Positions 1,147-10,198 of a stretch of DNA of 10,657 bases are shown piece by piece; positions within the stretch are counted from its first letter, which is position 1; each line of letters opens with the position of its first letter. The stretch spans positions 1 through 10,657 of the forward strand of contig CADWAF010002078.1 of the NCBI GenBank assembly GCA_902984215.1, read 5' to 3'. This stretch comes from Willaertia magna (lineage: Eukaryota; Heterolobosea; Eutetramitea; Acrasida; Naegleriidae). The position numbers and the translations under genes were made by a program. Under the pieces are notes generated by a model. The model saw only the letters and a program-made list of their open reading frames with translations. It was not told the DNA's origin and searched no databases.

Positions 1147-1800
1147 AACCACTAATCTCTGTTTGTAATAAGAATATTTATAATTATATGAGACTTATTA
1201 TGTGAATATTTTTAAATTTTTTTGCTGTTTTTTTGTAGTTTTTGTTGTTTTTATTTTTATTTTTTTAATAAATGATTTTTAAATTTCTTATTTTTAAAAA
1301 TATCTATTAACGAACAATTAATTAAGATTAAAGAAAAAAAGTTAATAGGATTTAAATTAAAGAATATTAAATTAAATATATAATTTTAAGAACTCTAATT
1401 ACTTTTATATTTTTTAAAATTAATTAATTAAATAATACATTAAATCTATTTTTAAATTCTAAAAGATAAATTTTATAAATAAATATTATTAAAAATTTTT
1501 AAAAAATATTTAAAAAATTTATTTAGATAAAAATTTAAGAATTATATTTATTAAATTATAAAATCTAAAATTATTTATATACATTATACTATAATATTAA
1601 ATAATTATAATATTTATATAAAAAATAAATATTTTAATAATAATATTATTAAATAAAATTATATAATTATAAACATAAAAATTTAATTTTATATATTTAG
1701 ATTTTAATTAATATTATTGGTTATACTTTATAAATATTATAATCTATAAAAGTTAAAAATAATATTTATTTTAATATATTTTAAAAAATATATTAAAAAA

Positions 1801-1844
1801 ATACTTGAATTATAAAATTATTTAATATATTAAATAACAAGTAT
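1801..1844. repeat. Palindrome with short inverted flanks
   Basis: A perfect 20-base palindrome, TTATTTAATATATTAAATAA, lies at 1818-1837. It is bracketed by the inverted pair ATACTTG (1801-1807) and CAAGTAT (1838-1844), with a 10-base spacer on the left side only. It could extrude as a cruciform. In DNA this rich in A/T a palindrome may arise by chance, but the C/G-containing arms make that less likely. Confidence -1.
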
Positions 1845-2135
1845 AAATAAAATTTATCTAATTATATTATTTTATTACAAAAAAAGAATTTGATTTAAAT
1901 AAAAATTTTTTTAAAAACTAAAATTAATAAAAGAAAAAAGTTTTATTAAAAATAAAGAATAAATAGAAAAAATAATAAATTTTTGTTTTTAAATTTTTTA
2001 TTATGATGAAAGATATAAAATTAATAAAAAATATTCAGTTTAATTTACTTTTTAATTACTATAATTTTACTTTTTTTAAAAAGAAATTCTTTATTTATTT
2101 AAAATAAAAAATTAATTATAAACTAAATATTACAT

Positions 2136-2193
2136 AAAAAAACTTATTTGAAACAATATTATATTAAAATATTTGTTTCAATATAAGTTTTTA
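2136..2193. repeat. Long imperfect hairpin, arms about 24 bases
   Basis: The left arm (2136-2160, AAAAACTTATTTGAAACAAT...) matches the reverse complement of the right arm (about 2168-2193) with two single-base gaps, around a loop of about 7 bases. The paired AACTTAT/ATAAGTT and GAAACAA/TTGTTTC blocks contain G and C, so this is the most convincing long stem in the desert. A T-run follows on the plus strand. It could be a small inverted-repeat element, a hairpin terminator or a structured origin; nothing else identifies it. Confidence -1.
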
Positions 2194-3555
2194 TTTTTTT
2201 TATAATGTTTAAAATAAGATAATAAATAATTATTTTTAATTTATTTATCTAATTAAATTATATGTTAATTAAATTAAAATAATTTAATTTTGTTAATAAT
2301 GTATATAAAGATTTAAAGTATATAAATTTATATATTTTATTAAATATTTTAAGCTTTTTAATATAAATTATTTAAATTTGTAATTTTTAGTATTTTATTT
2401 TTATTTATAAATTTATAAATAATTTCAATATTACTAAGATAATTAATATTTTATAATTGTTTATTGATATTTTATTTAAATAAAATTTGTAATTAATAAA
2501 TTTAATATAAATGTAATAAATTTATAAATTTTGTATTTTTATAGTTTTTTTATAAATTTTTATAAATTTAATAAATAATTTATTAATAATTATTTTTATA
2601 AATTAATAATTTTATAATATAAAAATAATATAATAATTTATCTAAAAAAAATAATTTTATTAAATAAAAATAATATAAAAAAAGAAAATAAAATATATAT
2701 TTAATAATAAATTATTTTTATTAAAATATTTACTAGAATTATTAATAATAATAATAATTTAAGTAATAGTTTAAATAATTTTATTTGATTTTTTTTTATT
2801 AATAAATTTTTTAAAAAGTAAAAATTTAGTTTTAATTTTATTTTTTTAATTAATTATTATAAAAAAAAGGTTAATATAAATTTATTTTTATTGTATATAG
2901 TTTTAAAATTATTAAAATTAAACAAAAATAATTAAATAATAATTAAATATAAAAAAATTTCTATAGATAAGGTTATATTATATTATATTTTAATAATAAT
3001 TATAAAATAATTTATTTAAAACAAAATAATAATATTTTAAATATAAAGATTATTAAAAAAATAAAAGATATAATAAAAAATATATTTAAAATTTTTAGAA
3101 TTTTTTTATAAATTAATTTATAATAATATTAATAGAATAATAAATAAAATAATTTTAATATTATTATTTTATTTTGGATAATAATATTTTTTTTAAATAT
3201 ATAAAAAAATTATAGAAAACATTATTAAAATTTATATATTTTTGATTTATTAATTATTAATATTTATTTATTTAATATAAAATAATTTAAATATTACAAA
3301 TAAAAAATTAAAAAAAAATATTTATTTATTTATTTATTTTTAATTATTTTAATTAAATAAATAACAAACAGAAAATATTATTAAAAAAATATATTTAGTC
3401 CATAGTTTTTTTAAAGAAAAAAAATAAAAAATTTTTTATAAAATTTTATAAAATCTATATAAATTGTACTATTAACTGTATAATTTATATTTTTAAAAAA
3501 ATGTTACTTTTGTGTAAAATATTTTTTTAAAAAAAATTAAAAATTAAAAATGTTT

Positions 3556-3583
3556 CAAAAAGTATATAAATTTATACTTTTTT
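3556..3583 (-). terminator. Hairpin plus T-run at the 3' end of the 3625-4560 frame
   Basis: AAAAAGTATA and TATACTTTTT form a 10-base stem around TAAATT and include the palindrome TATAAATTTATA at 3565-3576. It lies about 50 bases beyond the TGA of the minus-strand frame ending at 3625, with a T-run on that strand. It belongs to the palindrome family listed at 4584-4758, 6340-6395 and 7571-7723. A role as gene-end signal is inferred from position. Confidence -1.
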
Positions 3584-3624
3584 AATATTATTAAAAAAAA
3601 TTATTTTTATTTAAATAAAAATAT

Positions 3625-4560
3625 TCATAATATTTGCTTAATCTTTTTTTGTTTAATTTTGTTTATAAAATATTTATTATTATCTTCAATCCATTTATCA
3701 ATTAATTCATTTAGGTTTTGAAGTATAATTTTATTAATAGTAATTACTTTTTTTACTTTATTATCAGTTACCAAAATCTAAAAAGATTTTTCAGAACAAA
3801 TTAATTTTTAAAAATTATTTTCTTTTAGTTCTTCATATATTTATTATAATTCTTCTATAACACAAATAACATTTGTATCATTTAGTTTTAAATAATGTTT
3901 ATTAATAATATAAAAAGTATCAAAAGCATTATGTAAATTATAAATAAAATTAATATTTTTAAATTCTTTTTGTTTTTGTTTTAAAATATTAGAATTATTA
4001 TTATTATTGCGAGATCAAAATAAATAATTAAAAGCTATTTCATTAATTTCTTTATTGAAACCACCAATATTGTGTACTATATACAGTATAAGGCTATTAT
4101 TATTTTTATTTCAATAGTTAAAAAGTAAAAATTGTAATAATTTAGTATAACTATATAATAATTACTTAGAAATAATGAAATTATTAAATAGAGCAAAGTC
4201 ATTAATTTTAAATACAAAATAATAATCATGTAAGATAAAAATAAATAATTCAAAAAATAATCTAAAATTTTTACAGTATGCCTTAGTTTTAAAAATAATA
4301 TTTTTAATAGACTTTAAAAATTAAAAGTTATAATTATGATAAGTTATTGCTAAAATATTAAAAATTTAAATAAGGTCATAAAGAATTTATTTTTTTTTTA
4401 ATTTTTTCTTAATCAAGAAAAACAATTTTAATTAATTTTAAAATGTAAGACTGTATAAAAATTTTTTAAATACAAAGACAAACCATTTTAAAAATATATT
4501 ACAGACTATTAATTATACAAAATTTATTTTTTCAATGTTTAAAAAGTTAATAATTAAAAA
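3625..4560 (-). pseudogene. Long coding-like frame with TAA/TAG at Gln-like positions; unrecognised
   Basis: On the minus strand, one frame (codons starting at multiples of 3) runs from about 4560 to a TGA at 3625-3627, some 311 codons without a frameshift. It contains about 10 TAA, 1 TAG, 6 CAA, 2 TGG and 2 internal TGA. Every TAA/TAG falls where Gln fits, as in VIEELxxIYEELKENN, and both TGA sit where Trp fits (after FNY and after YLF). In the last 80 codons G is at position 1 in 17 codons against 3 each at positions 2 and 3, a strong coding signature. Segments include VHNIGGFNKEINEIAFNYLF and NLNELIDKWIEDNNKYF. No ATG occurs in the frame, so the start is lost, spliced or decayed. Two readings remain: a gene using TAA/TAG as Gln, or a relic degraded by C-to-T changes. 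Coding ancestry is fairly sure; family unknown. Confidence -1.
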
Positions 4561-4583
4561 TAACTAATAAAATCTAAAAACAA

Positions 4584-4758
4584 TATAAATTTATACAAAT
4601 TTAATTTAAAAAGGAGTATAAATTTGTATAAATTAATTTAATAAAAAGAGTATAAATTTATATTGTTTAATTAAAAAAAAAGTATAAATTTATATAAATT
4701 TTATAGGATAAAAAGAGTATAAATTTATATTTTTTTAATTAAACAGTATAATTTTATA
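4584..4758 (-). repeat. Cluster of TATAAATTTATA palindromes between two minus-strand frames
   Basis: Four perfect copies (4584-4595, 4651-4662, 4683-4694, 4718-4729) and two near copies (4617-4630, 4747-4758) lie between the end of the frame at 4787 and the start of the next minus-strand frame near 4560. On the minus strand most are followed by CTCTTTTT or a longer T-run, so the fuller unit is TATAAATTTATACTCTTTTT. With the paired GAG on the other side the stem can extend to 18 bases in a two-sided copy. The arrangement, palindrome then T-run immediately after a coding frame, resembles a transcription-end or 3' processing signal; repeated promoter elements for the next gene are an alternative. 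Confidence -1.
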
Positions 4759-4786
4759 TAAGTTAATATAAAATATTTTAATAAAT

Positions 4787-5338
4787 TTACTTTATAAATT
4801 CTTTTAAACAAATTAACATCAACCTTAAAAAAATAATTTTATTATCTTTGTCGTATTTAATAATGTTATTTAAAATTTTAATTAAATTATAATCAAATGA
4901 AGGTAAATATAGAATAAATTTTATAGGTCTATAAGTATTAATAATTAAAAACAGTTTTATTTTAATTTAATTTGGTTTTAAAAGATTGTTAAAAGTATTT
5001 GAAAAAATAATTTCTAATTTCAATATTCAAAGAAAACACTTTTTTAAATATTTAATATATACAAAATTTTTATATATCTTTTTAGTAAAAACTGTATCTT
5101 TGGTTAATAGATATATATACTTACATTTTGCTAAATATTTATCTTATTAAAATAAACAAATTTTAAAAACTATTAAAATTTCAGAAAAATCGATTTCTTT
5201 TAAATAAATAATATAAATTGACAAGACTTTATTTATAAAAATGAGATCTATTTTTTAATGATTAAAATATTTTTTAATTTAAAAAAATAAAACAACTTTA
5301 TTATATTTAACCTTTTATCATTCCACAACAATATCATT
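4787..5338 (-). pseudogene. Coding-like minus-strand frame with TAA at Gln-like positions; unrecognised
   Basis: About 183 codons on the minus strand, in a different frame from the 3625-4560 segment, ending around a TAA at 4787-4789. Contains about 6 in-frame TAA and 2 TGA. G is concentrated at codon position 1 (8 of 12 G in a 40-codon stretch I counted). Recognisably protein-like stretches include YLKEIDFSEILIVFKICLF, YLLTKDTVFTKKIYKNFVYI and RPIKFILYLPSFDYNLI. No ATG near the upstream end; going upstream the frame dissolves into the trinucleotide repeats at 5316-5462. It may be the continuation of the 5446-5760 frame, separated by repeat slippage. Same two interpretations as for 3625-4560. 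I recognise no family. Confidence -1.
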
Positions 5339-5462
5339 TACAACACAACAACTAAACAATCATCATTATCATCATCATCATCATTATAACAACAATAAAT
5401 CAACAACAACAACAACAACAATAACATCATTATCATAACAACAAATCAACAATCATCAACCC
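5316..5462. repeat. CAA/CAT trinucleotide repeats in a G-free tract
   Basis: Interspersed (CAA)n and (CAT)n runs on the plus strand, the longest being seven CAA units at 5401-5421 and five uninterrupted CAT units around 5370-5384. The plus strand has no G at all from 5261 to 5496, 236 bases, so a minus-strand transcript would contain no C here. It lies between two minus-strand coding-like frames. If translated, it would give homopolymer-like Leu, Val or Asp runs depending on frame, typical of slippage-prone microsatellites. Confidence -1.
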
Positions 5463-5760
5463 ATCTAAAATTATACTTACTTTTCTTATTTAAAATGATA
5501 AATAATTTAATTAATTTAAAAACATCTTTTAATACTATAAATACTTCATAATAAAAAAATTTATATAATTTTTTACATTTTTCAGAAAAATTAAATATAA
5601 TATTTAAAAAATACCACAAACTAAAAAATAAACATAACAACAATCTTAAACTTGATTATAGTTCAAATTTATTATAGTACTTATATTATTATAATTAAAA
5701 TAATTTTTTAAAACCATTTTTTAGATACAAAAAGAAAAAAATTTAAAATAATTAATGAAT
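5446..5760 (-). pseudogene. Coding-like minus-strand frame, about 105 codons; unrecognised
   Basis: The frame runs from about 5760 to a TGA at 5446-5448. The last 65 codons contain no stop in any code, including LLLCLFFSLWYFLNIIFNF, FSEKCKKLYKFFYYEVFIV and NFRWVDDC. Upstream of 5643 the same frame continues through about six TAA codons at positions where Gln is plausible (NKFELxSSLRL). There is no ATG; 5643 is a TTG. The hydrophobic, aromatic stretch near 5640-5580 could be a membrane segment. It overlaps the possible upstream exon of the plus-strand frame at 5812. It may be the N-terminal part of the protein continuing at 4787-5338. No family recognised. Confidence -1.
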
Positions 5761-5774
5761 GAGTTTATTTATAT

Positions 5775-5811
5775 GTAAGTAATTTATTGTTTGTATGTTT
5801 TATTTTTGTAG
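5775..5811 (+). other. Candidate 37-base intron (GTAAGT ... TTTTTGTAG)
   Basis: A textbook donor GTAAGT at 5775 and a T-rich acceptor TTTTTGTAG ending at 5811 bracket 37 bases. Removing them joins the plus-strand frame ending ...GTT TAT TTA TAT with TAT ATT ATT TAT at a codon boundary, and the downstream frame then continues into clearly coding-like sequence (KAKDFDLVK). Very short introns are usual in ciliates and some other protists. The call is tentative because GT...AG pairs are easy to find in such DNA. Confidence -1.
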
Positions 5812-6007
5812 TATATTATTTATAATATTTTTTAAAAGAATTTTTTTAATTTAATATGTCTTTATAACAATAAATTTAAGGCTAAAGATTTTGATTTGGT
5901 TAAATAGTTGATAATTGTGTGAAAAATAATTTTATTATTAATAAAGATAAAAAATTACATTTAAATTTCAGATAACGCAAAAGAAGATAAATTTATTTTA
6001 AATTAAT
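5812..6007 (+). pseudogene. Coding-like plus-strand frame, possible exon; unrecognised
   Basis: About 65 codons in one frame, with KAKDFDLVK near 5878-5904 and ISDNAKEDKFILN near 5965-6003. G is at codon position 1 in nine codons of this short stretch. It includes TAA/TAG at Gln-like positions and one TGA where Trp fits. It begins just after the candidate intron and ends at a TAA followed by the palindrome at 6011-6022. It may be part of a longer plus-strand gene shared with 6114-6340 and 6526-7659, or a separate small gene. No ATG. Confidence -1.
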
Positions 6008-6043
6008 GTATATAAATTTATATTCTTTTTATTATTTTTTTAG
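6008..6043 (+). terminator. Palindrome plus T-run after the 5812-6007 frame (or a 36-base intron)
   Basis: TATAAATTTATA at 6011-6022 is followed by TTCTTTTTATTATTTTTTTAG. It fits the palindrome-plus-T-run family found at other frame ends. The same stretch also reads as a short intron, starting GTATAT at 6008 and ending TTTTTTTAG at 6043; its length is a multiple of 3, so splicing would not change frame. I cannot choose between the two. Confidence -1.
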
Positions 6044-6113
6044 ATAAAAAAGTTATTAAAATTTTTTACAACAAAAAAAAGATTTAAAAATTAAATTATA
6101 GATAAAATAATGA

Positions 6114-6340
6114 ATAAATACTAAAAAAGTTATATATTTTTTAAATACTGTTTGGTTTTTTAATTATTGTTAAGATATTATTATAAAATTCTATATATCT
6201 AATCCAGAAATTGATATAGCAATTTGTAATTTTTTTTAAGTTTTTATAGAATAATATTAAATTAAAGCTTGTAAAACCTAGTATTTATAATATTTTGACT
6301 AAATATTTAATAAATAGTAAGTTTTTTTAAACAAAAGAGT
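6114..6340 (+). pseudogene. Coding-like plus-strand frame between palindromes; unrecognised
   Basis: After a TGA at 6111-6113 this frame runs for about 75 codons, with KKVIYFLNTVWFFNY, YISNPEIDIAICNFF and Gln-rich continuation where six or more TAA/TAG occur. G is at codon position 1 in 11 codons against 4 and 3 at positions 2 and 3, and the two alternative frames lack this bias. A GTAAGT at 6317 could be a splice donor at its 3' end. The frame differs from those before and after it, and palindromes lie at both junctions, so it is either a separate small gene or an exon. Confidence -1.
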
Positions 6341-6395
6341 ATAAATTTATATTTTTTTATTATTTTTAAATTAAATTAATTTATATAAATTTATA
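6340..6395 (+). repeat. Pair of TATAAATTTATA palindromes at a frame junction
   Basis: Perfect copies at 6340-6351 and 6384-6395 separate the frame ending near 6340 from the one that becomes coding-like at about 6427. The left copy is preceded by AAAAGAG and the right copy followed by CTTATTTT, so the two face each other as an inverted pair. They belong to the same family as the cluster at 4584-4758. Confidence -1.
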
Positions 6396-6525
6396 CTTAT
6401 TTTAACATTTAAAATATAATATTTTTAAAACTTATTGCTCTAAAATTAAGTGTAGATTAGAAGGTTTTGTTGTTGTTTTTAAAATTGAATTAATTTTAGG
6501 TCATAAAATAAATAAGAAAAAAAAT

Positions 6526-7659
6526 ATGACTAAATATGTTTTAAATTTTTACAATAAATTAATAAACAAATTTTATGACATTCAAATAAAATCTGATTTA
6601 AGGAGTAATTTGAAGGTTGATTAAATAAAAGATTTTATTAATAAAATATTTGATATTCAAAAAGTATTTTTAAATTTAAGTTTAATAATTAGTTTAAGTA
6701 AAAAATTTATAATTAATATTACTAAAACATCGATTCTGTTTGAAATATTTTCTTTTAATATATTTCCTAATACTAATGTTTTTTTAATTAAGAAACAAAA
6801 TAAAGATATTTAGTTTAGTATAAGACTTATTTAAAAAATTATTATTAAACTATTTATCATAAATTCAAAAACATTATTATTTGTTTTTTTCTGTTTTATT
6901 AAAGATTTATATAAATTATAATTCATGTTACAGTTATAATTTTATATTATTTTCATTTAAATCTAAATTTTTAATCTATAAAAATTAAATATTAATATCA
7001 ATAATAGTCAAAAGTTTTTTTTATTAATTGTATATTTATTCAATATCAATTTCAGATGGTTTAATTTTTAATTTATATTTTAATATAAATATTATTTTTT
7101 TAATTATTTTAATAACAGAAAAGAATGTGCTGGTTTTAAAATTAATAAATATTAATACAAAATGACAGTTAATAGATTGAAAATAACTGTAATTAATATT
7201 TAAAATAAAAATATAAATACTCTTTTAGCCCCATATCTATAGTTTCTTCTAATACATTCTGTTTTTGTTGAGCTTGATAATAAAAAGAAAAAAGTCTAAA
7301 AATTATAAAAAAAAACTGTTATAAAAAAATATTAAAAGTAAAAACAAAAAAAGTAGAAAAAAGAAATTTATTAAGTTAGTTTTTAAATAAAAAAAGTAAA
7401 AACAGTCTATTCTTCAAAAATATATAAATTAAAAAGCTTTAAACAAGAAGAAGAAAAAGAAAAAAAATTAAAGATTATTGATTAAAAGATTAAAAAAAAA
7501 TAATTATTCTATATTTATTAACTAATAAATTAAAATTTCTTTTAAAAATTTTTTTAAAAAAAAAAAGCAATATAAATTTATATTTTTTTATTAATTTTTA
7601 TTGTTCAAAATATTAGTAAAAATAGTGTAAATTTATATTACTTTTATTATTTTTATTGA
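6526..7659 (+). CDS. 377-residue ORF if TAA/TAG encode Gln; unrecognised protein with Lys/Gln-rich end
   Basis: From ATG at 6526 to TGA at 7657 there is no TGA and no frameshift in 378 codons. Up to 7510 I hand-counted about 19 TAA, 3 TAG, 6 CAA and 1 CAG, the pattern of an AT-rich genome with TAA/TAG reassigned to Gln. Coding signal extends upstream in the same frame to about 6427 (CSKIKCRLEGFVVVFKIEL), so the start may be earlier or spliced. The middle reads TKTSILFEIFSFNIFPNTNV; about 7126-7180 reads RKECAGFKINKY and KMTVNRLKITVIN; 7216-7275 reads NTLLAPYLxFLLIHSVFVEL. From 7285 it becomes Lys/Gln/Glu-rich, like a basic, possibly nucleic-acid-binding tail. Signal fades after about 7530, where the palindrome cluster begins. 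Under the standard code this is a heavily interrupted pseudogene. Family unknown. Confidence -1.
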
Positions 7660-7723
7660 CTTTAAAAAATATAAATTTATACTCTTAAATATTTTAAAAT
7701 TATAAAAACTATATAAATTTATA
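7571..7723 (+). repeat. Cluster of TATAAATTTATA palindromes downstream of the 6526-7659 frame
   Basis: Perfect copies at 7571-7582, 7670-7681 and 7712-7723 and a variant at about 7626. On the plus strand the last two are followed by CTCTT, the same asymmetric flank seen on the minus strand in the 4584-4758 cluster, so the orientation follows the strand of the preceding gene-like frame. Supports a gene-end or inter-gene signal specific to this block. Confidence -1.
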
Positions 7724-7858
7724 CTCTTTAAGTTAAAATTTTTTATGTTTTTTACAAAATTTTATTATTAAAACAACAATTAATATTTATAATTTATTTA
7801 AACACATCTAAAACAGTGTTTTAATTAAAAAAAAATTATTTTAAGGTTATTCTAAAAG

Positions 7859-8242
7859 ATGTTGTATTAAAGATTTTTTTTGTTTTATTTTTATATGAAT
7901 AATGGAAAAATTATATATAATTTTATGTACAATCATTATGGAATTATTAAGATATATAGGTTTACAAAAAGAAAAGAAATTAATAAATTTGATAATAAAG
8001 TTTTAAAAATGTATTACACTTATTTTTAAGTAGTATTTTAAAAATCAATAATAATAAATTTATTTACATAAAAAATGATTATTTATATTTAAATAATAAT
8101 AGTTATAAAAGTAAAAAATAATTTATTTAGTTTATTTAATTTAATAAATAATGAAATTAATTTATTTAATTTAAATAATTTTAAAAAGATCTTTTTTTTT
8201 ATTTAATATAGATAACGATTTTATTAAGATTAATTTTAATGA
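7859..8242 (+). CDS. 127-residue ORF if TAA/TAG encode Gln; unrecognised
   Basis: ATG at 7859 to TGA at 8240-8242 with TAA codons in between; codons 5 to about 56 contain no stop in any code. An internal ATG at 7895 begins MNNGKIIYNFMYNHYG, followed by KIYRFTKRKEINKFDNKVL. Several ATG codons are present, unlike the minus-strand segments. G is at position 1 more often than elsewhere. The second half is low-complexity Asn/Leu/Phe and could be noncoding. A competing frame starting at ATG 7903 has a weaker position-1 bias. Moderate-to-low confidence; no family recognised. Confidence -1.
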
Positions 8243-8395
8243 TAAATATTTATTTCAATTATATTTTAATTACGTTTAGATTTTAATTGAATTTATTTTA
8301 ATTACATTTCTTCAAAGTTTTGTTTTTGTAAACTTCAAAACCATTTTATTCAAATGAAATGGAAATAAATTCCAGCATCTGAAAATCGAAAAAAA
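8243..8395 (+). promoter_or_regulatory. 5' region of the LRR gene with two tiny upstream ORFs
   Basis: Between the last frame of the AT block and the LRR start, base composition steps back toward that of the flanks near 8290-8340. Two short ATG-initiated frames precede the gene: ATG AAA TGG AAA TAA at 8354-8368 and an eight-codon frame at 8359-8382 ending TGA. Both end before 8396 and could reduce initiation at the main ATG if present in the mRNA. No TATA box can be told apart from the background. Confidence -1.
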
Positions 8396-9130
8396 ATGAT
8401 TCATCTTCTTCCAAAAGAATTAATTGCAGAAATTATTTTCTTTTTAATTCCAAAGATAATATATGCTGAAGATGAAAATGTATTGTTAACTTTATTACCA
8501 ATATTACAAACAAGTAGATCATTAAAAGAAAAAATAGTTAATAATGAAGTTATTTTTAGTAAAATTATGTATCATCTTAACGAAACAAATAATATTTATA
8601 AAAAGGAAATTAATAATTTATTTTTTAATGACAACTCTAAAAAATTAATTACAAAGATTGTACTTTCGCAAACATTAAAAATACCTTCCAAAGAATTAAT
8701 AAATTTATCAAAACAATTAATTAATTTAACTTATTTAAAAATAGATTTATATGAAAATATTGATTTTACAAAAATTATTTTTCCAAAATTAAAAACACTT
8801 AAAATTCAATCATATATATTAATAGCAAAACAATTTATTGAAAATCACATTTCAACTTTACAAAAAGTAAATCTTTCATTATTAAATGAAAATCCAAATG
8901 TGGCAATCAATTACGAAGCAATTATAAAATTGTTAGAATATTTAAAATTTAATAAAATTGAAACAAAAATAGCATTGAATTCTAGTGTTTTAATTAATAA
9001 TCAAGAATTGTATAACTTTATTAGTAACAAAACTATTTCAAATAATTTAACTTGTGTTAGTATTTTATTTGATAAGATTAAAAATATTAATTTTAAATTA
9101 TTTAATAATTTAAAATCAGCAACGTATTAA
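8396..9130 (+). CDS. F-box-like / LRR protein, N-terminal part, closed by an in-frame TAA
   Basis: The ATG at 8396 follows an A-run, a favourable context in AT-rich eukaryotes. Residues 3-45 (HLLPKELIAEIIFFLIPKI... then a Leu-rich helix) resemble an F-box, the roughly 40-residue domain that binds Skp1 in SCF ubiquitin ligases. From about residue 95 irregular LRR units follow, such as INLTYLKIDLYENIDFTKI and FPKLKTLKI. The frame closes at TAA 9128-9130, but the same frame continues with LRR sequence (NCSSIYISNCKNLKTINLV) without a break to 10198. The whole locus is therefore one 601-codon gene with a nonsense codon at position 245, or the TAA is read through. Glutamines elsewhere are CAA. If F-box-LRR is right, the protein would select substrates for ubiquitination; this is a fold-level guess. 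Confidence -1.
   Translation: MIHLLPKELIAEIIFFLIPKIIYAEDENVLLTLLPILQTSRSLKEKIVNNEVIFSKIMYHLNETNNIYKKEINNLFFNDNSKKLITKIVLSQTLKIPSKELINLSKQLINLTYLKIDLYENIDFTKIIFPKLKTLKIQSYILIAKQFIENHISTLQKVNLSLLNENPNVAINYEAIIKLLEYLKFNKIETKIALNSSVLINNQELYNFISNKTISNNLTCVSILFDKIKNINFKLFNNLKSATY
9128..9130 (+). other. In-frame TAA interrupting the LRR gene
   Basis: Reads ...AAA TCA GCA ACG TAT TAA AAT TGT TCT.... A single change from CAA or AAA would restore a sense codon. Coding character is the same before and after. It is the only interrupting stop in the 601-codon locus, so it is either a recent nonsense mutation, a sequencing error, or programmed readthrough. Confidence -1.
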
Positions 9131-9310
9131 AATTGTTCTTCAATATATATTTCAAATTGTAAAAATTTAAAAACAATTAATCTAGTAGCTAGTGATGATA
9201 TTAAAATTGAAAATATTAATTCTTTACAAAATTTAAATTTAAATTATATTAAAACTGCAAACATTTCAGTAAAAGATTTTATTGACAATTTAAATGTTTA
9301 TCCAAAAGAA

Positions 9311-10198
9311 ATGCATTACAATAATATTTTTATAAAATGTAATAAAGTAGTTAACTGTATTTTATTTAATTTTTCAATGGCAGACGATTCTTATAAATAT
9401 TTATTTAAAAATGTTAATAAAGTAATGAATGTTAAATTAGCACCTGATAATCCAGGACATTTATTTGAACCAATGAAAGAAATGATTTTAAATTGTAATA
9501 GAATACAAAGTATCAATCATTTTGACGGTTATGATGAACAAGGATTAAGCGTTAGTTATATTTATAAATTAAATAGTAACAAATTAGTAAATGTGTCTCA
9601 ACAACATGTCGATAATAATGCCATGGATTATATTAATGTTGTTAAGAATGGAAATGAATACATTATTAATGAAATAGATCCTTTTGAAATTTATAATTTA
9701 CAATTTGATAGATATGGTGCTGTTGGAAAACTTGTTTTTAATCTATTAAATTTAAAATCTTTAAAAGAATTAATATTTAATGATAAAAACAAAGTTCATG
9801 ATGAAATTGTTATTAGTAATTTTATTAGTTTAACTATATTAAATATTCACAATATTTGCAATTTACAAATCCCATTTAATGATTTAACGAATTTGACTAA
9901 ATTAGAAATTAAAAATTCTTCAAATATAAAATTATTTAATACTGATGATGACAACAATAATATTAATGAAGAATTGTCAAATATAATTATTGAAAATGTT
10001 AGTCAATTACAAATTGATTTAACATTAAATTGTCCTAAATTAATGAATTTATTATTAAAATATTTTGAAGAAGACAAACAAAATATTAATTTAACATTTA
10101 AATATGTTCCTTTATTAGAAAATGTTAACATCTCAACAAATAAAAGGCTCAAGGAAATATTTAAATTAAGAGGCAGAAGGGGAAGAGGCTACTATTAA
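9311..10198 (+). CDS. LRR protein, C-terminal part of the same locus
   Basis: In frame with the 8396-9130 segment (915 bases apart, 305 codons), so ATG 9311 is most likely an internal methionine; sequence between 9131 and 9310 is also LRR-like. LRR units include LNLKSLKELIF, FISLTILNIHNICNLQIPF and LTNLTKLEIKNSSNIKLF, with an Asp/Asn insertion at about 9945-9965. From 9476 on it is nearly identical to the partial gene at 1-729. The C-terminus is Arg/Gly-rich (LRGRRGRGYY) and ends at TAA 10196-10198. It converges with the minus-strand gene, whose stop is only about 50 bases away, so the two 3' ends share this short gap. If the upstream nonsense codon is real this part may be untranslated. Confidence -1.
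   Translation: MHYNNIFIKCNKVVNCILFNFSMADDSYKYLFKNVNKVMNVKLAPDNPGHLFEPMKEMILNCNRIQSINHFDGYDEQGLSVSYIYKLNSNKLVNVSQQHVDNNAMDYINVVKNGNEYIINEIDPFEIYNLQFDRYGAVGKLVFNLLNLKSLKELIFNDKNKVHDEIVISNFISLTILNIHNICNLQIPFNDLTNLTKLEIKNSSNIKLFNTDDDNNNINEELSNIIIENVSQLQIDLTLNCPKLMNLLLKYFEEDKQNINLTFKYVPLLENVNISTNKRLKEIFKLRGRRGRGYY
9476..10193 (+). repeat. Right copy of the 0.7 kb LRR direct repeat
   Basis: Pairs with 1-712. Amino-acid differences are few and scattered (for example NGIQ/NRIQ, YTYK/YIYK, TQQH/SQQH, LIIYN/LNIHN), plus two extra codons and a rewritten tail. High similarity at synonymous sites too implies recent duplication or gene conversion. Confidence -1.

Follow-up and report, generated by a model that had tools for sequence, protein, structure and literature searches.

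Transposons of fungi that have decayed through repeat-induced point mutation (RIP) are multi-copy elements wrecked by GC-to-AT change, with stop codons standing at former Gln codons, and in a protist, Trichomonas, adenine methyltransferase genes are linked to a large mobile element, the Maverick. Mavericks and N6-methyladenine (6mA) are treated in PMC12695648. PMC5735166 describes the VANDAL elements of Arabidopsis, in which VANC anti-silencing proteins recognise short motifs located within introns and upstream regions, and PMC9860276 describes introners, many introns with shared sequence. Here we compare with these systems a 10,657-nucleotide stretch of DNA from Willaertia magna (contig CADWAF010002078.1; the whole stretch is hereafter the window), in which an extremely AT-rich block was originally predicted, from the letters alone, to hide protein-coding frames with TAA and TAG behaving as Gln codons. 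Two options had been offered: an element with a ciliate-like code, or standard-code genes decayed by C-to-T biased change. The first fails, as nine of 21 TAA/TAG codons face residues other than Gln in relatives, and the second stands in a sharper form, in that one and the same strand shows G-to-A as often as C-to-T and what has decayed is an element present in many copies. We are confident that the block preserves one broken copy of an element that is repeated in the genome and likely transposable, that C-to-T and G-to-A change most likely eroded it, and that its in-frame TAA and TAG are probably former codons of the standard code.

In-frame stop codons and the direction of change

When positions 3600-8340 of the window were searched against their own genome (a 19.24-Mb assembly of 894 contigs, in which the window is contig C424), 326 matches were obtained (309 candidates, 40 of them scored; the window itself is one), with identities of 64-89% among the matches listed. 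Weaker matches extend beyond the core of the copy, on the right to 8152 and 8265 (relatives L032 and L036) and on the left to 3025-3050 (L031, L034). Two relatives with more G+C are central to the comparison: L030 (contig C604), of about 6.55 kb, which is matched by other copies from 1083 to about 7636, and L029 (contig C415), with about 4.5 kb of element in a copy cut by the contig start. The G+C fraction of their element parts is 0.242 and 0.262, respectively, against 0.127 in the window block, and the longest stop-to-stop frame in the standard code is 151 aa in the L030 copy and 175 aa in the L029 copy, against 78 aa in the window core. Inside 3600-8340, standard-code frames that begin at a start codon reach 60 aa in a single case, with 65 aa.

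For a test of the code, 14 open frames of L030 and L029 (10 and 4, with limits set by eye) were projected on the window, which gave 769 codons, each window codon being taken once and gapped codons and codons with a stop in the relative being excluded. Changes were spread over the three codon positions as 190/149/181. The 22 in-frame window stops face Gln (12), Trp (4) and one each of Lys, Arg, Cys, Ser, Glu and Leu; among them the sole TGA faces Arg, and the nine TAA/TAG that do not face Gln face Trp (4), Lys, Cys, Ser, Glu or Leu. Alignment of TAA with residues other than Gln in relatives, which the original prediction had named as telling against a reassigned code, is thus what is found. The rate at which C is read as T points the same way. 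Were TAA and TAG to encode Gln, C-to-T change in CAA and CAG would be silent and would be expected to exceed that at His codons, yet the rate at position 1 of Gln codons (12/25) lies above neither that at position 1 of His codons (14/18) nor that at position 3 (42/68), and TAA is therefore not treated as Gln; the remaining rates are 19/47 for other codons at position 1 and 64/112 at position 2. A scan of the window for tRNA genes returned none.

Several observations pull the other way and were weighed before a reassigned code was rejected. Gln is the largest class facing the window stops, and the suggestion that TAA and TAG fall where Gln suits the local sequence is borne out in the minus-strand frame 3628-4014, where each of the four is matched by Gln in one or more of five aligned copies, the copies differing in which sites are stops. 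The rate of C-to-T at Gln codons (0.48) is slightly above that at other position-1 C (0.40), and when 12 copies are pooled the rates of change differ by position (chi2 over 9.21) in six of 20 blocks of 240 nt, most strongly at 3670-3909 and 5830-6069; the pooled copies are not independent of one another. However, Gln is the residue expected most often opposite such stops because CAA and CAG are one C-to-T step from TAA and TAG, and the excess in block 3670-3909 falls on codon position 1, the position rich in G, rather than on position 3, which is not what a conserved protein would leave. In the plus-strand frame 6114-6340 the same suggestion was not borne out: opposite TAA 6171 one copy has Trp, another Cys and six have stops. 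An element with a ciliate-like code inside a standard-code genome would account for the position-1 bias of G and for the four Gln sites of frame 3628-4014, but it would leave ten of 22 stops facing seven other residues, frameshifts within the frames, and longer standard-code frames in the two copies with more G+C. The AdoMet-binding motif of the predicted methyltransferase described below is moreover ruined in the window, so that even with TAA taken as Gln a functional enzyme would hardly result, and we regard such a code as highly improbable. Codons for Gln, Trp and other residues in standard-code genes are the probable origin of the in-frame TAA and TAG.

The spectrum of change is strongly one-sided. 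Read against L030 over 4040 sites, the window shows C>T 263 and G>A 267 but T>C 46 and A>G 61, and against L029 over 2387 sites C>T 160 and G>A 171 but T>C 41 and A>G 32, an excess over the reverse changes of about 4-6 fold, whereas against the equally AT-rich L031 the two directions are about even (C>T 99, T>C 108). From these three comparisons we infer that the direction of change was C-to-T and G-to-A. The transition bias and the multi-copy target would suit a RIP-like, CpA-directed process or the loss of methylated CpG as the agent that destroyed the copies, and CpA is slightly ahead in the comparison with L030. The share of C read as T when the next base is A, C, G or T is.64,.49,.45 and.55 there, but.60,.74,.60 and.63 against L029; this is too small and inconsistent a dependence for CpA-directed RIP or CpG decay to explain the changes. 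The ratio (CA+TG)/(AC+GT) is likewise near 1 (0.95 in the window block, 1.05 in L030, 0.99 in L029), and the spacer at 1250-3600, although it may itself be an old repeat, is poorer still in G+C (0.057). We consider both processes very unlikely here, and the doubt first voiced about RIP was justified; CA and TG are not strongly depleted (1.18 and 0.87 of expectation). The family thus resembles the decayed fungal transposons in being multi-copy, wrecked from GC to AT and provided with stops at what were probably Gln codons, and differs from them in that its changes have no consistent CpA context.

Gene remains in the window block

The features that we assign to the block are as follows, the palindromes being taken up in the next section.

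3432-7951, plus strand: core of the decayed element copy, in the same orientation as relative L030
3604-5026, minus strand: remains of gene A, broken by stops; ends approximate
3628-4014, minus strand: best-kept piece of gene A, a frame of the original prediction; G by codon position 20/4/5; four TAA/TAG
4574-4790, minus strand: remains of a probable gene A intron; palindromes at 4584, 4651, 4683 and 4718
5099-5556, plus strand: 458 bp at the place where L030 has 2,020 bp (2778-4797); most of the 5' part of gene B missing
5557-7500, plus strand: remains of gene B, a predicted methyltransferase gene, with stops and frameshifts; right end approximate
5987-6043, plus strand: remains of a probable intron of gene B, with a palindrome at 6011 and the acceptor TTTTTTTAG preserved
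6317-6412, plus strand: probable intron of gene B that preserves the donor GTAAGT; palindromes at 6340 and 6384
6811-6813, plus strand: place at which 273 bp of L030 (6098-6370) have no match
7055-7114, plus strand: ruined motif I, LIFNLYFNINIIFLIILI in the window against LIFDLCSGTYIISLVALIS in L030
7534-7951, plus strand: 3' end module downstream of gene B; palindromes at 7571, 7670 and 7712

The coding signal of the block is real, but local. Against 200 dinucleotide shuffles per segment, three-base periodicity is pronounced across 3601-4200, where z reaches 9.7 (at 3751-4050), and present at 6601-6900 and 7201-7500, and p is at most 0.01 in five of 30 segments of 300 nt in 3601-8250 against one of 14 in 1201-3450. 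The bias of G toward codon position 1 was recovered in the 129 codons of frame 3628-4014 and approximately in frame 6114-6340 (11/5/3 over 75 codons, where 11/4/3 had been given). Gene remains do lie on both strands, gene A on the minus and gene B on the plus strand. The claim that the long frames carry no indels could not be upheld, as frame 6114-6340 is shifted after 6236, where a run of T is two bases shorter than in L029, and only 13 of 50 gaps relative to L030 and nine of 35 relative to L029 are multiples of three, in counts that pool coding and non-coding gaps. The caution that frames grow long by chance at this composition was well placed: 61 frames of at least 60 aa in genetic code 6 overlap 1190-8345, and much of the longest, of 1030 aa (2152-5244), lies in spacer devoid of coding signal. 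Translation in code 6 followed by a Pfam search, a check that had been proposed, gave nothing over cut-off for six window frames. The spacer at 1250-3430 has about 5-6% G+C and almost no coding periodicity, and its resemblance to other AT-rich sequence carries no interpretable meaning.

The window copy lacks most of the 5' part of gene B and at 5099-5556 falls short of L030 by about 1.6 kb; a CAA/ATC simple-repeat tract at 5320-5460 adjoins the missing part. The 437-bp 3' end module with its palindromes (L030:7204-7640 and relatives) finds matches on more contigs than other parts of the element do, and several of these matches are close to a contig end.

In less decayed relatives, gene B is predicted to end in a C-terminal N6/N4 DNA-methylase domain followed by a lysine-rich tail. 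This prediction draws on a second family of the element, found in contig C662 and elsewhere and 24-50% identical to the first in aligned protein pieces. A search of the whole genome with PF01555 found four places, on contigs C248 (L052), C447 (L045), C114 and C415, and matches over the cut-off of 26.7 bits occur only in the second-family relatives, namely the L045 piece with one stop read as X (E 2.8e-6, 27.9 bits) and an unbroken 222-aa exon of L052 (E 4.1e-6, 27.3 bits). The exons of the second family carry LIICDLPYGIS, then QKP, then LIIDLCSGIGIT (L045) or LIIDLCSGTGTT (L052), and we take the DLPY, QKP and DLCSGTGTT-like motifs to stand in the order of CcrM-type enzymes. The stretch at 7055-7114 corresponds to motif I (AdoMet-binding), and the window has NLYFN there where L030 has DLCSG. 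The nearest NCBIfam model is the adenine methyltransferase CcrM, far under its cut-off; among solved structures the best match of the L045 piece is also CcrM but is not significant (E 0.067), and the L046 frame, alignment A2 and L052 found nothing relevant there. Protein searches with an L029 frame and the L045 exon gave no match at E <= 0.01. Gene B of the relatives is like CcrM-type adenine methyltransferases in matching the C-terminal part of PF01555 (profile positions 163-216), and unlike them in being split by introns, lying inside a repeated element, bearing a lysine-rich tail and scoring over only part of the domain. The L052 exon (L052:3-668) stands at the start of contig C248 with a G+C fraction of 0.256, and since it is unbroken, not all copies have decayed in the methyltransferase part.

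A profile of gene A found three public proteins (P0001, E 1.9e-51; P0002, 1.3e-5; P0003, 4.1e-4), none of which has a Pfam match over cut-off, and the gene A frame of L047 belongs to no NCBIfam family. DUF6589 was considered for gene A, and Pfam did not list it.

A number of these results count against an account of the block as a decayed transposable element with a methyltransferase gene. L029 and L030 are themselves broken, and the ancestral state is nowhere seen whole. The PF01555 match spans only 54 of 221 profile positions and is barely over cut-off, and the window's own family (C114 and C415) falls below it with 22.8 and 22.6 bits; gene A has no Pfam family over cut-off, and its two AlphaFold models are poor (pLDDT 50.3 and 47.4). 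Terminal repeats and target-site duplications, for which repeats were searched in the window and in L043, were not established, and no transposase was shown, the gene pieces scanned having no Pfam match to a MULE transposase (VANA) or to VANC.

Probable introns and family palindromes

In L029 and L030 the stretches between open frames start with GTAAG and end with AG, and judged by these boundaries they are probable introns of the family genes. In the window their signals have eroded: the gene A donor GTAAGT of L030 reads GTAAAT (4785-4790), the gene B donor at 5987, GTAAGT in both L029 and L030, reads ATAAAT, and the gene B acceptor at 6411-6412 has gone from TTTAG in L029 to TTTAA. Two intron positions are common to both families while their palindromes differ, one in gene A, after KRIYK or KRIYR (L030, L047), and one in gene B, where four codons plus one base separate VLI from the intron (L029, L043).

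Each family has a palindrome of its own. Flanks included, the first family (14 sequences, 122,878 bases) contains 155 copies of TATAAATTTATA and 7 of AATATTAATATT, the second (8 loci, 28,180 bases) none of TATAAATTTATA and 48 of AATATTAATATT, and eight other loci (26,320 bases) 2 and 0; L052, which lies outside this count, contains neither. The window has 13 copies of TATAAATTTATA where 0.25 would be expected, and the element accounts for 11 of them; L030 has 17 (0.04 expected), and L043 has 25 copies of AATATTAATATT (0.07 expected). The palindromes apparently lie mostly outside coding stretches: none of the 31 in L029 and L030 falls in an exon, a count that is partly circular because exon limits were drawn by eye. 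A GTAAG on either strand stands within 60 nt upstream of 17 of the 25 palindromes of L043 (0.16 for random positions), five of 14 in L029 (0.23) and four of 17 in L030 (0.13).

By analogy with elements that act on their own DNA, the decayed element may mark its DNA with the family palindrome. We propose that an element protein, either the predicted methyltransferase or protein A, would bind or methylate the palindrome of its own family, and that such recognition would tell element from host DNA and thereby keep the element expressed or mobilise it. Once a copy was inactive, AT-biased mutation would erode its G and C; the cores of the palindromes are all A/T, and because such mutation cannot remove them they stand out. 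We put forward only tentatively, and at rather less than even probability, the fuller proposal that a mobile family with its own predicted methyltransferase writes a private palindromic tag into introns and flanks, and that when the families split the tags changed together while the intron positions stayed, as if tag and reader co-evolve and each family recognises only its own DNA. Two palindromes of the window (2321 and 2406) lie outside the element, and two of the 25 in L043 (1057 and 7474) lie inside the methyltransferase frame, neither of which sits well with this picture. The palindromes could instead merely serve the element in splicing or transcription and play no part in self-recognition, as their frequent position shortly after a GTAAG donor would suggest; we hold this to be possible though not favoured, given that different palindromes stand at the same two intron positions in the two families, that the eight other genome loci are nearly free of them, and that several palindromes per intron and clusters downstream of genes exceed the need of one signal.

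Arrays, flanking genes and significance

Some copies also form arrays. Positions 1-2381 of L043 recur at 6348-9000 in three pieces that are 91-96% identical, with a spacing of 6347-6619, contig C566 contains two units in one direction, and contig C629 contains three gene B matches 5.1-5.6 kb apart. The head-to-tail arrangement in L043 and C566, the gene B series in C629 and the location of the genes on opposite strands would also fit an integrated circular DNA element, a plasmid or virus present as concatemers, with the window copy as its dead remnant. We think this unlikely, although it is no negligible contender: no replication or capsid gene was recognised in the pieces scanned, the genes have probable spliceosomal introns, and unequal crossing-over of a transposon would also yield arrays. 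For the preferred reading, a likely transposable element, mobility is inferred from dispersal and arrays only.

To the right of the block, 8396-10198 is one frame of 601 codons, leucine-rich in appearance, with an in-frame TAA at codon 245 (9128-9130). The TAA faces Glu in one paralogue (L002) and Lys in another (L004), so that this gene copy is probably broken too. Its 3' part (9476-10198) recurs at 1-729 in pieces that are 96-97% identical, the contig starting inside this first copy, and a repeated gene therefore borders the AT block on both sides, with one of its two copies apparently broken. The actin family is found at 37 places in the genome, the best being an open frame of 377 aa that matches solved actins down to E 1.5e-203, which identifies the genome as eukaryotic, and no match to enolase (PF00113) was found in it; together these make an unusual gene set for an AT-rich eukaryote. 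Near a second-family copy, the minus-strand frame L044:1240-1590 has the look of a plant-type [2Fe-2S] ferredoxin, to judge by a motif.

Compared with the systems introduced at the outset, the family resembles the Mavericks of Trichomonas in that a predicted methyltransferase gene of a protist is tied to a likely mobile element, but its unit is about 6.6 kb and the pieces scanned gave no recognisable Maverick gene. With VANDAL elements (PMC5735166) it shares short motifs, often in tandem, that differ between related elements and are apparently dense in introns and upstream regions; VANDAL elements encode proteins that act on their own DNA, which for the element here is a proposal only, and they differ from it in that its motif is a perfect palindrome of 12-14 bp and its second gene holds a DNA-methylase domain. 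As with introners (PMC9860276), many introns have sequence in common, but here only the palindrome is shared and not the intron; the two compared intron positions are kept across the families, and eight other loci of the genome contain the motifs 2 and 0 times. No description of an element family with a methyltransferase gene and family-specific palindromes was found in the titles and starts of abstracts returned by literature searches.

At about 87-95% A+T, decayed standard-code genes can mimic a code in which TAA and TAG encode Gln, and it is the less decayed copies that settle the question. An element family with a predicted methyltransferase gene and palindromes of its own would, in turn, constitute a natural test of how mobile elements may discriminate their own DNA from that of the host.

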